A stretch of 64,000 nt of DNA from contig VCJN01003320.1 in the NCBI GenBank assembly GCA_006384855.1, positions 21,148 through 85,147 of the forward strand, written 5' to 3'. Source of the stretch: Tetraselmis striata (taxonomy: Eukaryota > Chlorophyta > Chlorodendrophyceae > Chlorodendrales > Chlorodendraceae). Below are positions 6,633-10,674 of this stretch, one piece after another. Under the pieces are notes generated by a model. The model saw only the letters and a list, made by a program, of their open reading frames with translations. It was not told the DNA's origin and did no database searches. Made by a program: the position numbers and the translations under genes. Numbering within the stretch: the stretch's first letter is position 1; each line of letters opens with the position of its first letter.

Positions 6633-6939
6633 TTGCGCGTGGTCTGTCCCCGTGGCGGGCCAGGATGCAGCAGGCGGCTCGGGGTGAAGAAGGACGCTCG
6701 GGGGCCTGATCGTCAGGCCTTTGTGGTCGCAGGAGAAGTCCGATATTCAAAGATTTCTGCATTGAGGCGGGTGGGGGTGGGAGCGCCCCCAATACGCGCC
6801 AATGATCTATGGGCGTGTTCGCTGGAATGAACGTGGGCACTTCGTGGTGCGATTGCGTCATGCCGGCGTTCGCTAGGGGCTGTATATGTTTTTTGTTGGG
6901 GTGCGTGGCACTGACCGGGAGTTGGAAGTCTCCACGTCC

Positions 6940-7099
6940 GTACGGGTTGCGGTAGGACGGTAAATAAATTGTTGGGAAACCCCATAAACATGTTTGAATC
7001 AAAACTAGCAAAACCAGACTTGATTGCAGGTTTGAAATGTTCTAAGCATGGTTATAGGGCTTCCCAACAATGTAAATTGTCCTAATGCAACCCGTACGA
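6940..7099. repeat. Inverted repeat with about 53-bp arms
   Basis: Arm 1 (about 6940-6993, CGTACGGGTTGCGGTAGGAC...) is an imperfect reverse complement of arm 2 (about 7047-7099, ...GTCCTAATGCAACCCGTACG). The arms flank a loop with the motif GCAAAACCAGACTTGATTGC and TTTGAAATG. That motif is also the B repeat of the recombinase element immediately to the right, so the structure is probably a related terminus. Confidence 0.75.
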
Positions 7100-7432
7100 T
7101 CTGTTGGTGGTTTCAATCGACGGTAAAGTTACCGATACCACCGGGGTTCACTACGGGCTGTCCCTGGCCATCGGCAGTGAGCCCAACGTTTCCGGCCGGG
7201 GAGCTACTCAAGACAACCACCGCCAGACCGCCAGCCATCTTCCAGCTCGCTGCCTTCGGCAGCGCTCTTTCGTTCTCCGTTTCTGCCTTGCAGGCTTATC
7301 GGGCGCCCCCCCCCCCCCCCCCCCCCTTTTCGCTGAGGCTTACTAGCCACGAAATGGCGCTTCTCCCGTGTAAAAACGCCTCCGCACACTCTTGGCAAAG
7401 TCCGACTCGATTGCATGTTTGAAACCTGATGC
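7100..7432 (+). mobile_element. Remnant right terminus of a related YR element
   Basis: Several blocks here resemble, in the same order, the right end of the element at 10368-10674: CCGCCAGCCATCTTCCAG, then TCGCTG...GGCAGCG, a C run, GTGTAAAAACGCCT, and TTGGCAAAGTCCGACTCGATTGC...TTTGAAA. The corresponding block at the intact element reads GTGTAAAACAGCCT...TTGGCAAAACCAGACTCAAC. The copy is diverged and carries a poly-C tract (7307-7326). I infer an older insertion immediately upstream of the younger one. Confidence 0.55.
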
Positions 7433-7445
7433 TGGAGATCGATGT

Positions 7446-7631
7446 ATGATCTAAACTAGTTTATGGGGTTTCCATCCTTGACCTAACCGCTTTTTAGCTA
7501 CAAGTGCTGCTCAGTGGTACGGGAACTAGTAACTGTTGTTGCGCCCTTGTTGGGTGCAGCACGAGTAGACATAAAAGCAGCCAGAACAGCTGAGCCTGCC
7601 ATCTTCCAGTTTTCGCTGCGTTCCACGCAGC
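7446..7631 (+). repeat. A1 repeat of the YR element
   Basis: 186 bp starting ATGATCTAAACTAGTTTATG and ending CGTTCCACGCAGC, identical by eye to A2. It forms the left terminus of the element and probably contains the promoter for the downstream ORFs, since the Gag-like start codon lies about 115 bp beyond it. Confidence 0.9.
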
Positions 7632-7745
7632 AATGTAAAAACTGTCTCGTAACCCGTTGCGAGCAAGGTCACCCCAGGTTGTTCAAGACCACACCCGGCT
7701 CGCCACCCGAGTGTGATATTCTCGTCCGTACGTCCGTGCGTTACC

Positions 7746-8621
7746 ATGCCAGATGGAGAAGAACCCGTCGCTGAGCCGACGATGGAGTCGCTGAACGCAG
7801 ATATGAGGGCCCAGTCTTTATTACTGCGAGAGCTGGCTACGGCTGTGGCACAATTGACGGCTCGTGATCGCGTTGTTGATGGAGAAGGGGCACATGGCTC
7901 CGGCTCAGGGCAGCGCTTCGCGGGACAGCCGACAGGCAGCGGGGGAGCCGCAGAGCGCCCCGACTTGCTAGAGCTAGCCCAGAGCGGCCGTGTCGGAGCA
8001 AAATCCGTGAGTGCCGAGGATGATTACCTCGCGGTGCCAGAGCTACTGAAGAGAGCAGAGTCTGGTTACGAGGCCGTTCGACCGGTCAGCCGAGTGCCTG
8101 GGCTTTTCCCTTTGAGCACCGACCTAACGAACGAGTACCTCAAGCAGGATGACCGGCGTCTGCCGGCCCAGGAGGAGTACTTGTGGATGTCGTGTTTCGG
8201 GGCCCACATGGCCGCCCTTTTCGTGGCGCTCGACGAGCTGCTACCTTACGTCCCCGCCACTAACCAGGACTTCACCCCCTACCTCGCGAGAGCTCGGAAT
8301 CACGCCGAGGCCATCGACAAGGCGTTTCGTTTTCGTCTAGCCTTCCTGCGGAGGCTGAATGAGATCAAGCGTGTGCACGGTGACCAAGGTGTTCTGGACG
8401 TGCTGCGAGCTCAGCATTTTCAGCCTGCTTCGGAGCATCTGGGTTCCGCGATTTTTGGGGACCTCATGAGGGACTACGAGCGTCGTGTCTTCGAGGCGAC
8501 CGTTGCCAGCAGCGCCAAGGCGACCGCTACTTCTCGAGTAGCGGCTGCAACTGCAGGACGCGGGCGTGGGCGAGGACGTGGCGGCGGACGTGGACGTGGC
8601 CGCGAAGGTGAGCACGAGTGA
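7746..8621 (+). CDS. Gag-like ORF1 of the YR element
   Basis: A 291-codon ORF beginning MPDGEEPVAEP; the ATG at 7746 is the first in frame. The N-terminal 50 residues are amphipathic with heptad-like leucine spacing, suggesting a short coiled coil. A Gly/Ser-rich linker follows, then a helical central region (about residues 90-250). The C-terminus is an Arg-Gly tail (GRGRGRGGGRGRG) that could bind nucleic acid. It precedes the recombinase ORF by about 95 bp. Its size, order and basic tail fit the Gag-like ORF1 of DIRS-type elements, but I see no zinc knuckle or other diagnostic domain, so the assignment rests on position. Confidence 0.6.
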   Translation: MPDGEEPVAEPTMESLNADMRAQSLLLRELATAVAQLTARDRVVDGEGAHGSGSGQRFAGQPTGSGGAAERPDLLELAQSGRVGAKSVSAEDDYLAVPELLKRAESGYEAVRPVSRVPGLFPLSTDLTNEYLKQDDRRLPAQEEYLWMSCFGAHMAALFVALDELLPYVPATNQDFTPYLARARNHAEAIDKAFRFRLAFLRRLNEIKRVHGDQGVLDVLRAQHFQPASEHLGSAIFGDLMRDYERRVFEATVASSAKATATSRVAAATAGRGRGRGRGGGRGRGREGEHE

Positions 8622-8715
8622 CGGCGTGGGGCGCCGCTCGCCGGAGCTGCAGGAGCCTTGCGAGGCCACCTTTCGGTGACCGCCGCAAGACGCACCCTTG
8701 CAGCTCAACGGCGGG

Positions 8716-10289
8716 ATGAGCGCCCTGTGTCAGGACCTGACCCCCCCCACCTTACAGACTTCATTTAGACCTTCCTCGGTGCGGCGCTTCTTACAGCTAC
8801 AGCCGAGTGCGGCTCAACCATCCGCACGCCTGCACATGGCGGCTCAACCATCCGCCCTTCTTACAACCTCATCTCCGCGTTCGTCGGTTGTTACACTACG
8901 TGTTACAACCGGTTCGCAACGACCAAGTTTCGCGCGTGTACGTTACGCACGGGACAGGCGCTACGAGCGCGAAGGGCGCGCGGGGCGGCCCTCTTACCTG
9001 AACCTAGCCCCGCAAACCCGTATTGGAGCTACTGCAAACCCGTCCAGCAACTACCGGCCAACCGCCGGGAACCTAACCGTTGCTGCCGAGTACTTTGCGA
9101 ACAGTAGCCGTGCCGGTGGAACTCTGTCAGTAAAACGACGCACTTACGTAATTGACGAGCCCGCAGCTATCGCTCCATGGGCTGCGTCACTGCGATCTCG
9201 ACTGCAGGACGCGTTTGGCCCAGACGAGCTAGGCCAGCGGACGCTCGACCTGCTCTCCAGCTCCCTCAGCGCTCAGACCCTCAAGAGCTACGCCGGCAGG
9301 TTGTCTCAGTTCGCTGAGTTCTGCCACGACTCCGAGAACATCAGCCCGCTGGAAGCGACTACTGCTACTGTTGTTCGGTACGTTGCCTGGATCGGGGAGA
9401 GAGGGCACATCGCAGCTAAATCGTTGCAGCCCTACCTGTCTGCCATCAACACCTTCTTCGAGCTGCACAACCTCGTCCCGATCGCCAAGGACAGCCTACA
9501 CCTCACTTCAGCAAGGCGTGGGTTAATGTTGCGTCAGCGCCGGCTGGACGCTGCCCCTTTGCGTGTCCCTCTGCCTGCGGATGTAGCTTACCGCTTCGTC
9601 TCAAAGGCCGAGCTAATTGTGTCTGCTCCTTATTTTACCCAGAGTCCCACCTCGACTACCGAGCCCTCTTGGCCTCGGTCGTCAACTTCCTGTTCTTTGC
9701 CAGGGGCCTTACTGGCGTCTCCTGTCGAGTGCAAGATGTGCATGTCGGCACCTACAACATCACCTTGCAGATCTACCGCGAGAAGGGTCGCGCTGGCCGA
9801 CGGGGACCCGACGACCTGCGCGTACTTCTCCTTCCAGTGTCTGAGCACCCTCGAGTGGCACGTCTCTTGCACCACTTCATCGACAACGTACAGTCTGTCC
9901 CCTTGGTTACTGTTGGCTTGGCTGCCTCCAACTTCTGGGCTGTCAATGTGGCTGAGCAGTCAAAACCTTGGACTGCGGCTACGATGTCAGACTGGTTGTC
10001 TACAGCAGTCAACCTAGTCAACGCTGCCCCTCCTGCTGGCACTTCCTGGACTTCACACAGTCTACGCAAGGGCGCAGCCTCTGCAGCAAACGCCATCGGA
10101 GCGCCGCTGTCCCACATCCGCTACCAAGGCGGTTGGGCCACTAACTCTGATGTCGTTCTGGACTACATCGACCCCAACGTTCTTCCTTCTCCTGGCGCGT
10201 GGTTCTTCTTTGGACACATCGCCCCCCTCCGCCACTTCCAAGTCCAACAGGACTCCGCAGCGGTGGCCTTCCCAGTGCCTCCTTCATGA
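8716..10289 (+). pseudogene. Tyrosine recombinase of the YR element, frameshifted
   Basis: The first frame (ATG at 8716; the frame is also open upstream) carries a basic N-terminal extension. A SAM-like core-binding domain follows, with LSAQTLKSYAGRLSQFAEFC and QPYLSAINTFFELHN. Near 9600-9650 the reading shifts by one base into a second frame that continues to 10289. There it reads FFARGLTG (candidate catalytic Arg), a basic turn YREKGRAGRRG (candidate Lys), HSLRKGA (the H-x-x-R box), IRYQGGWA and VVLDYIDP (candidate nucleophilic Tyr). These are the canonical tyrosine-recombinase landmarks in the right order. Apart from the single frameshift the catalytic domain appears complete. The shift could be a real lesion, a programmed event or a sequencing error. 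Confidence 0.8.
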
Positions 10290-10343
10290 CTTGGCGCTAC
10301 CCCTTCTCCGTCAATCTACCGCTCTCTACGTTCGCTCAAGACG

Positions 10344-10370
10344 GGCAAAACCAGACTCAACTTTGAAATG
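10344..10370 (+). repeat. B1 repeat of the YR element
   Basis: 27 bp from GGCAAAACCAGACTC to TTGAAATG, identical to B2 at 10648-10674. Its last three bases (ATG) are also the first three of A2. Confidence 0.9.
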
Positions 10371-10553
10371 ATCTAAACTAGTTTATGGGGTTTCCATCCT
10401 TGACCTAACCGCTTTTTAGCTACAAGTGCTGCTCAGTGGTACGGGAACTAGTAACTGTTGTTGCGCCCTTGTTGGGTGCAGCACGAGTAGACATAAAAGC
10501 AGCCAGAACAGCTGAGCCTGCCATCTTCCAGTTTTCGCTGCGTTCCACGCAGC
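10368..10553 (+). repeat. A2 repeat of the YR element
   Basis: 186 bp, identical by eye to A1 (7446-7631). It directly follows B1, forming the internal copy of the circle junction expected in split-direct-repeat elements. Confidence 0.9.
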
Positions 10554-10647
10554 GCCCCCCCTGACTCCGTTTGCCCTCCACGCTTTCGCTAAACCATCCT
10601 GCCAATTTCGGCTCTTGATCGTGTAAAACAGCCTGCGCGATCTTTTT

Positions 10648-10674
10648 GGCAAAACCAGACTCAACTTTGAAATG
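10648..10674 (+). repeat. B2 repeat, right end of the YR element
   Basis: 27 bp identical to B1 and ending TTGAAATG. The next bases, CTAGTATCC, are taken as flanking host DNA. A 94-bp spacer separates it from A2. Confidence 0.85.

Follow-up and report, generated by a model that had tools for sequence, protein, structure and literature searches.

How can an element that has the split direct repeats of a retrotransposon and a tyrosine recombinase (YR), and no reverse transcriptase (RT), multiply in its host genome? This question is raised by a 3.2-kb element at positions 7446 to 10674 of a 64,000-nucleotide (nt) stretch, here called the window, of the Tetraselmis striata genome (contig VCJN01003320.1, positions 21,148 to 85,147 of the forward strand, assembly GCA_006384855.1). 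The element belongs to a family, designated Y, that encodes a Gag-like open reading frame (ORF) and a putative YR. Beyond what the initial annotation of the locus had recognized, the genome contains a second family, designated R, which has its layout and end sequences in common with Y and whose single predicted protein carries the RT.

Y and R jointly hold the predicted modules of one PAT-like element. Together they quite probably constitute a bipartite PAT-like retrotransposon in which Gag-YR and RT reside on separate, mutually dependent elements. With slightly less confidence, the pair may be described as an obligate two-component retrotransposon, one PAT-like genome divided between two independently amplifying elements whose sole link is the recombinase sites that their ends have in common, an arrangement analogous to a multipartite virus genome. 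Neither Y nor R would be filed as a PAT element, because each lacks a defining gene, and the pair would work like one.

Organization and copy number of the Y family

The window element is oriented on the positive strand and is delimited by two pairs of repeats identified by direct-repeat comparison. The 186-nt left terminal repeat A1 (7446..7631) recurs internally as A2 (10368..10553), and the 27-nt right end B2 (10648..10674) recurs internally as B1 (10344..10370), giving the layout A1-ORFs-B1-A2-B2. The two A copies are identical at 186/186 positions and the two B copies at 27/27; B1 and A2 overlap by 3 nt (ATG), and B1|A2 is the same sequence as a junction of two element ends. The PAT/Ngaro-type repeat order proposed in the initial annotation is therefore upheld, as are its claims of recent movement, drawn from the identity of A1 and A2, and of a recombinase without RT: Pfam finds YR domains and no RT in the ORFs of the window copy or of the copy at locus L026, and RT would not fit into the copies that were read.

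The interior comprises ORF1, a Gag-like frame of 291 codons from its ATG with an RG-rich C terminus (7746..8618, within an open frame at 7653-8621 of the ORF list), a UGA codon located by copy alignment (8619..8621), and ORF2 (8622..10289), which consists of an N-terminal extension and the putative YR. A SAM-like N-terminal domain is matched in ORF2 (PF02899, Phage_int_SAM_1, 8e-8; 9259..9462), followed by a catalytic region (PF00589, Phage_integrase; 9948..10172) with a weak Pfam match (5e-4, below cut-off) in which HSLR, GGW and Tyr were recognized by inspection. Comparison of the YR alignment with the PDB gave one weak match, a designed binder. In the window copy, the reading frame of the recombinase ORF is disrupted, its N-terminal part lying in a frame at 8680-10017 and its catalytic part in a frame at 9420-10289 (ORF list), and it is open in several siblings.

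The 224-Mb genome assembly gives 63 matches to chlorophyll a/b-binding proteins, in line with a photosynthetic host. In this assembly, a 35-nt pattern for the start of A, allowing up to 3 mismatches, occurs 1,774 times, and the reversed pattern used as a control occurs 0 times. For a 35-nt core of the YR gene the count is 750 (control 0), so that by number most A copies are explicable by elements of the Y kind. Exact places were listed for 100 of the 1,774 A starts; among these, 45 of the 47 same-strand A-A distances below 20 kb are 2,696-2,930 nt, the others being 968 and 11,537 nt, and the two places on C29, when read, proved to belong to an ordinary Y copy and to a fragment separate from it. 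These counts and uniform spacings bear out the suggestion of the initial annotation that many 3.2-kb copies without RT would define a distinct family.

The loci read comprise twenty that surround exact copies of A and some further ones, and 33 copies or parts of copies were aligned. Identity to L026 is 96.4-98.6% for 24 young copies and 75.7-88.4% for 9 old copies; the full order A-ORF1-YR-B1-A-tail is kept in the old copies L025o, L036, L037 and L039, the remaining old copies being partial or damaged. The recombinase ORF is open for at least 549 codons directly after the UGA in 7 of the 21 copies that span both ORFs, a set that includes two copies with an internal deletion (L014 and L015). 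ORF1 and a 553-codon second ORF are both open in 3 of the 21 (L021, L025n and L026), a count that rises to 5 when L012n and L031, whose C termini are altered, are included. No long, RT-bearing version of Y was found in the sampled A-A spacings or in the old copies read; a full-length parent may lie among the A starts outside this sample. L034 and L035, considered as longer versions, were rejected as a damaged segmental duplicate of one old copy because they are 94% alike along their entire extent and in the flanks as well.

Several copies have a distinctive arrangement. Head-to-tail A-interior-B arrays are present at L017:2977-8997, with three A's, and on contig C348, with four YR cores. An A-tail-B copy at L018:2897-3202 resembles the solo AB repeats reported for Ngaro; in the stretch fetched upstream of it no family interior was detected, and a young inverted copy follows it. 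New Y copies lie beside old ones in L011, L019 (in inverted order) and L025.

A second family carrying reverse transcriptase

The R element at L041 is 3,051 bp long and consists of A1' (180 nt), an ORF of 763 codons, B1' (28 nt), A2' and B2', with identical repeats (A1'/A2' 180/180; B1'/B2' 28/28); the same order is found in L042 and L043 over the parts fetched. The L041 ORF matches RVT_1 (8e-17) and RT_RNaseH (9e-6), and retroviral RTs were matched in the PDB. Neither Gag nor YR was detected in R, and tblastn of Y ORF1 and ORF2 against L041 gave no match at E<=1.

The R protein can be compared with that of L040, an ordinary PAT-like full-length element of ~5.9 kb with the order A1, Gag, RT-RNase H-methyltransferase (RT-RH-MT), a third ORF, B1, A2, B2. 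The L040 Gag carries a zinc knuckle (3e-7), and the third ORF, which has no Pfam match, is a putative YR by position and motif. The R ORF and the L040 RT-RH-MT protein align over 646 amino acids (28%); a Dam match in the R ORF (E 0.006) is below the cut-off, and its region aligns with the Dam domain of L040 (1.3e-6).

Starts of A' number 349 genome-wide (control 0). Among the 100 listed, 19 of the 23 same-strand A'-A' spacings below 20 kb are 2,734-2,779 nt, the others being 3,437, 9,500, 11,858 and 13,663 nt. An approximate DIRS-type RT query gave at least 151 scored matches, in two main groups, one read in L040 and the other in L041, plus some others; an open frame of exactly 763 codons is present at 22 of the 59 RT places assigned to the R group among the matches listed, 3 shorter RT matches in the same score range having been left out of the 59. 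A further 150 scored RVT_1 matches, with near-identical scores and many in frames of ~1,540 codons, probably represent another retrotransposon family that is young and abundant.

Shared ends and end-to-end joins

Outside their ends, Y and R have only short, chance-like matches. The first 27 nt of A, within which A1 contains the palindrome TAAACTAGTTTA (7452-7463), match at 25/27 positions at exactly both A' starts (18 for the runner-up among 14,950 positions), and the B ends of Y and R are alike to a degree reached in 1 of 5,000 shuffles. The same A start reaches 15/27 at best in a scan of L040, and the B ends of Y and L040 are matched as well in 1,522 of 5,000 shuffles; the YRs of L040 and Y have no blastp similarity. 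DNA folding of the end junction gave no structure beyond chance.

The two families are also joined end to end. In L038, the B2 end of an old Y element runs into A1' of an old R element at the exact crossover, and in L044, found with a targeted pattern, a diverged R runs into a young Y through an exact B|A join. The non-Y form of the A end has 284 exact matches; of 100 listed, 96 have T as in R, two have A and two have C, and no third element class with these ends was established among them; a class with G at this position may exist. Two A-type ends with C at this Y/R-distinguishing position lie 2,697 nt apart at C648:7698 and 10395 and may belong to a third variant.

Purifying selection on the ORFs of both families

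Variants present in at least 2 Y copies, which represent multiplying lineages, were compared with singletons, which mostly represent decay after insertion; the relatedness of the copies was ignored. The normalized ratio of nonsynonymous to synonymous changes (N/S) is 0.18 for shared and 0.77 for single variants in ORF1 (Fisher p 3e-12), 0.40 and 1.09 in the N-terminal part of the second ORF (p 3e-4), and 0.24 and 0.79 in the YR (p 6e-19). In the other two frames of ORF1 and YR, shared changes have N/S of 1.3-3.2. The contrast persists in the 24 young copies alone for ORF1 (p 0.008) and YR (p 0.02). Both Y proteins thus appear to be maintained despite the lack of RT in the element. Purifying selection on both ORFs is unlike what a decaying deletion product would show.

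The predicted R protein is likewise maintained by selection, as judged on few copies. N/S is 0.20-0.42 in pairs of three copies, with 0.95-1.46 in the other frames, and 0.22 both for an old 72% fragment and for L044, with at least 0.95 in the other frames.

ORF1, the UGA codon and a conserved stem-loop

ORF1 is Gag-like, as inferred from its position, its size, its RG-rich basic C terminus and its link to an enzyme ORF through UGA. In intact copies the second ORF is in the frame of ORF1 and begins directly after its stop. Of the 33 aligned copies, 25 include this stop codon and 8 do not extend over it; all 25 have UGA, and the next base is C in 24 of them. The first in-frame ATG of the second ORF in L026 is 71 codons after its start. 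Shared variants in the stretch before this ATG comprise 11 nonsynonymous and 13 synonymous changes, a normalized ratio of 0.38, with 1.14 and 1.15 in the other frames.

A conserved RNA stem-loop of 39 pairs in two helices (8629..8725, identified by folding and copy alignment) starts after a 7-nt spacer behind the UGA, with a folding energy of -63.3 kcal/mol and a z-score of -3.8. Covariation was assessed in 15 copies over 43 pairs in three helices, one of which consists of 4 pairs around the stop, for 645 pair cells. Standard pairs occupy 94.7% of these cells compared with 34-45% in slid versions, and 8 cells are double-changed compared with 2.4 in shuffles. The most diverged copy, L039, folds much alike on its own (z -3.97). 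The UGA and stem-loop probably represent the anatomy of stop-codon readthrough.

Repeat homogeneity, insertion sites and proposed mechanism

Over 182 compared sites, 17 of 21 copies have 0-2 differences between A1 and A2, the remaining four being old, and the differences are scattered with none fixed. In the four old copies and L026, the A1 of one copy is overall no closer to the A1 of another than to its A2. The lack of any fixed difference implies that the two A copies are homogenized, an outcome that reverse transcription would produce if it regenerated the ends from the internal B1|A2 junction. At sixteen insertions the site is TA|Y-like and target duplication is not consistently seen: a flank match is absent in 12 of the 16, and the mean match is 0.94 nt compared with 0.52 in mismatched pairs, with one match of 6 nt.

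A TATA-like ATAAAAG motif, a putative promoter, lies inside A1 (7571..7577) and also in A2, at position 126 of A in L026. The spacer between A2 and B2, here called the tail (10554..10647), contains TGTAAA (10622-10627), a candidate polyadenylation signal; TGTAA is used by green algae as a polyadenylation signal. The two motifs fit an RNA that lacks both extreme ends of the element.

These features suggest the following cycle. Translation of Y RNA would yield the Gag-like protein, with readthrough at the UGA adding a Gag-YR fusion, and R RNA would yield RT. Each RNA would start inside A1 and stop in the tail, thereby missing both extreme ends. RT supplied in trans by R could copy both RNAs, restoring the ends from the internal B1|A2 sequence to form circular cDNA, and YR supplied by Y would recognize the ends common to both families, the circles being inserted at TA|Y-like sites without target duplication.

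Comparison with known systems

The comparison draws on excerpts of the cited sources. PAT-like elements (Pat1, TOC3, Kangaroo) are described as having Gag, RT-RH-MT and YR in one element, and the Gag of the algal TOC and Kangaroo forms reportedly lacks a zinc finger (PMC4157794). Split direct repeats in the order A1-ORFs-B1-A2-B2 and a YR are common to these elements and the present system; however, Gag-YR and RT-RH-(MT) are here on two elements that are alike only at their ends. The split repeats are found in Y and in R (in L041 whole, in L042 and L043 as fetched), YR is present in Y and was not found in R, RT-RNase H is absent from Y and present in R, and a methyltransferase was not found in Y and may be represented in R by the weak Dam-like match, in a region that aligns with the L040 domain. 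Insertion without target-site duplication, as in the 16 insertions above, is also a PAT-like property.

Ngaro elements have the structure A1-[ORFs]-B1A2B2, solo AB repeats and adjacent insertions, with RT and YR together and no methyltransferase (PMC8547959, PMC4157794). Y shares this repeat layout, the solo AB repeats and the adjacent insertions; however, it lacks the RT that membership calls for, and R has a weak Dam-like match. Cryptons are described as having YR without RT, no long direct repeats, and terminal direct repeats of 4-6 bp (PMC3212892). Y likewise has YR and no RT, but differs in its 186-nt split repeats, its Gag-like ORF and its candidate RT partner, and membership among the Cryptons was rejected on the 186-nt and 27-nt split repeats.

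The nearest analogue, a partial one, is HeT-A and TART of Drosophila telomeres. HeT-A has Gag and no RT and is thought to borrow RT from a partner family, TART encodes Pol, and TAHRE has Gag and Pol (PMC5537684). Y resembles HeT-A in having a Gag-like protein without RT; in contrast, HeT-A and TART are non-LTR, telomeric elements, and in the present pair an essential part missing from either half is carried by the other. SIRE is an RT-less element of a few hundred bp made of the ends of VIPER, its known parent (PMC6681497). An RT-less element with ends in common with another element is thus found in both cases; SIRE is presumably hardly coding, whereas Y and R keep selected ORFs and no parent was found. 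In Tca2, a UGA with a downstream RNA structure separates gag and pol (PMC2194720), as between Gag and the enzyme ORF in Y, but the enzyme after the UGA is here a putative tyrosine recombinase and not Pol. Among open-access titles and abstract openings, with subscription papers and Repbase outside this scope, no precedent for a split YR retrotransposon was found.

Alternative explanations

It is possible that Y and R do not depend on each other and are separate derivatives, mobilized in trans by ordinary full-length DIRS/PAT elements of this genome (L040, for example) or by a rare, unseen full-length parent sharing their ends. A full-length PAT-like element and at least 151 scored DIRS-type RT matches are indeed present in the same genome, the element of L040 type lying exactly at a Y end in L009 is internally deleted, so that deletion derivatives do occur here, and non-autonomous forms of such elements are known from VIPER/SIRE (PMC6681497). 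However, purifying selection on both Y ORFs and the R ORF is unlike that of a passively carried derivative, the L040 B end and YR have no significant similarity to those of Y, and the sampled spacings fit no full-length parent, 45/47 (Y) and 19/23 (R) matching the short forms. We consider this explanation rather unlikely. The initial annotation had offered an internally deleted DIRS derivative or a lineage between DIRS elements and Cryptons. The former is not supported, since both ORFs are under purifying selection with copies down to 75.7% included, and no A-A spacing in the sample corresponds to the longer RT-bearing relatives by which it proposed to recognize derivation by deletion; the latter finds no support either. 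An LTR retrotransposon (LTR pair, target duplication, DDE integrase) was rejected by the repeat order, the YR and the lack of a consistent duplication.

That Y is a YR-only DNA transposon, moving by Crypton-like circle excision and re-insertion while keeping its split repeats, with R a parasite of its recombinase, is very unlikely. YR without RT and insertion without consistent target duplication would be compatible with such an element, and the tandem A-interior-B arrays of L017 and C348 suggest recombination at B|A. A DNA transposon would, however, have no evident need of B1-A2 and no evident route for homogenizing A1 and A2, yet there is no fixed difference between them; moreover, a Gag-like ORF precedes a readthrough-like UGA, and the copies number in the hundreds. 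A variant of the bipartite reading, in which RT still comes from R and ORF1 is an accessory protein other than Gag, is unlikely: ORF1 has no family match and no similarity to the L040 Gag, but it is Gag-like in position and size, in its basic, RG-rich C terminus and in being linked through UGA to an enzyme ORF.

Several observations weigh against a mutually dependent Y/R pair. Regarding the proteins, the YR catalytic Pfam match is 17-20 bits, below the cut-off; ORF1, scanned in the window copy and in L026, matches no Pfam family and has no similarity to the Gag of L040; the N-terminal part of ORF2 gives no selection contrast in the young copies alone (p 1.0); and no confirmed relatives of Y or R ORFs were found in the viral and other genome contig collections searched. 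Covariation in the stem-loop is modest, with 4 double-changed pairs (as many in 13/500 shuffles) and 17 further pair types (116/500). R was read whole in L041 only, and the roughly fivefold excess of Y over R is what a parasite would show as well. RT could also come from the abundant full-length DIRS-type elements that encode one themselves, and the first 40 nt of the L040 A have a weak likeness to the Y A start in local alignment (GGGTTTCC; 174/5,000 shuffles as good). Recent chimeric joins are rare genome-wide (0 Y-to-R, 1 R-to-Y), and in L009 the B2 of a young Y is joined, sharing AA, to A1 of the L040-type element. Such joins may therefore arise by target preference or through the recombinase of another family, so that the Y-R joins support a common recombinase only moderately and the shared ends weigh more. 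Finally, the mobilization of Y and R is inferred.

Neighboring and additional features

The L040-type element of L009 occupies L009:4930-8500; it is internally deleted and begins exactly at the Y B2 end. Immediately upstream of the window element, 7100-7445 appears by eye to be the decayed tail and B end of an older relative. Adjacent to this is a 160-nt inverted-repeat mini-element (6939-7098) with arms at 6939-6958 and 7079-7098, both halves of which resemble the A start (6975-7001 inverted; the direct half at ~7040-7070, by eye) and flank a B-like stretch. Long C runs recur in the window and at several loci, and also in element tails (L034-L038).

A PF00589 profile search for other YR elements gave 7 matches, of which C1548 is Y; beside this and the two loci named next, the matches lie at C396:53229 and on C1804, C1064 and C483. 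Loci L029 and L030 (C396 and C2009) carry integrases on contigs that look bacterial by their neighboring genes. A strong integrase match at C1804:118938-119390 (118 bits, in a 410-codon frame) is far above the other hits of this search.

Significance of a proposed divided retrotransposon

Retrotransposons are usually described as autonomous elements plus their parasites. If the interpretation of Y and R as one divided PAT-like retrotransposon is true, it would describe mutual dependence between selfish elements, each lacking what the other provides, both selected and both multiplying. A search for a separate RT partner would then be needed before RT-less YR elements elsewhere are labeled as Cryptons or as defective, and the evolution of multipartite genomes would become testable outside viruses.

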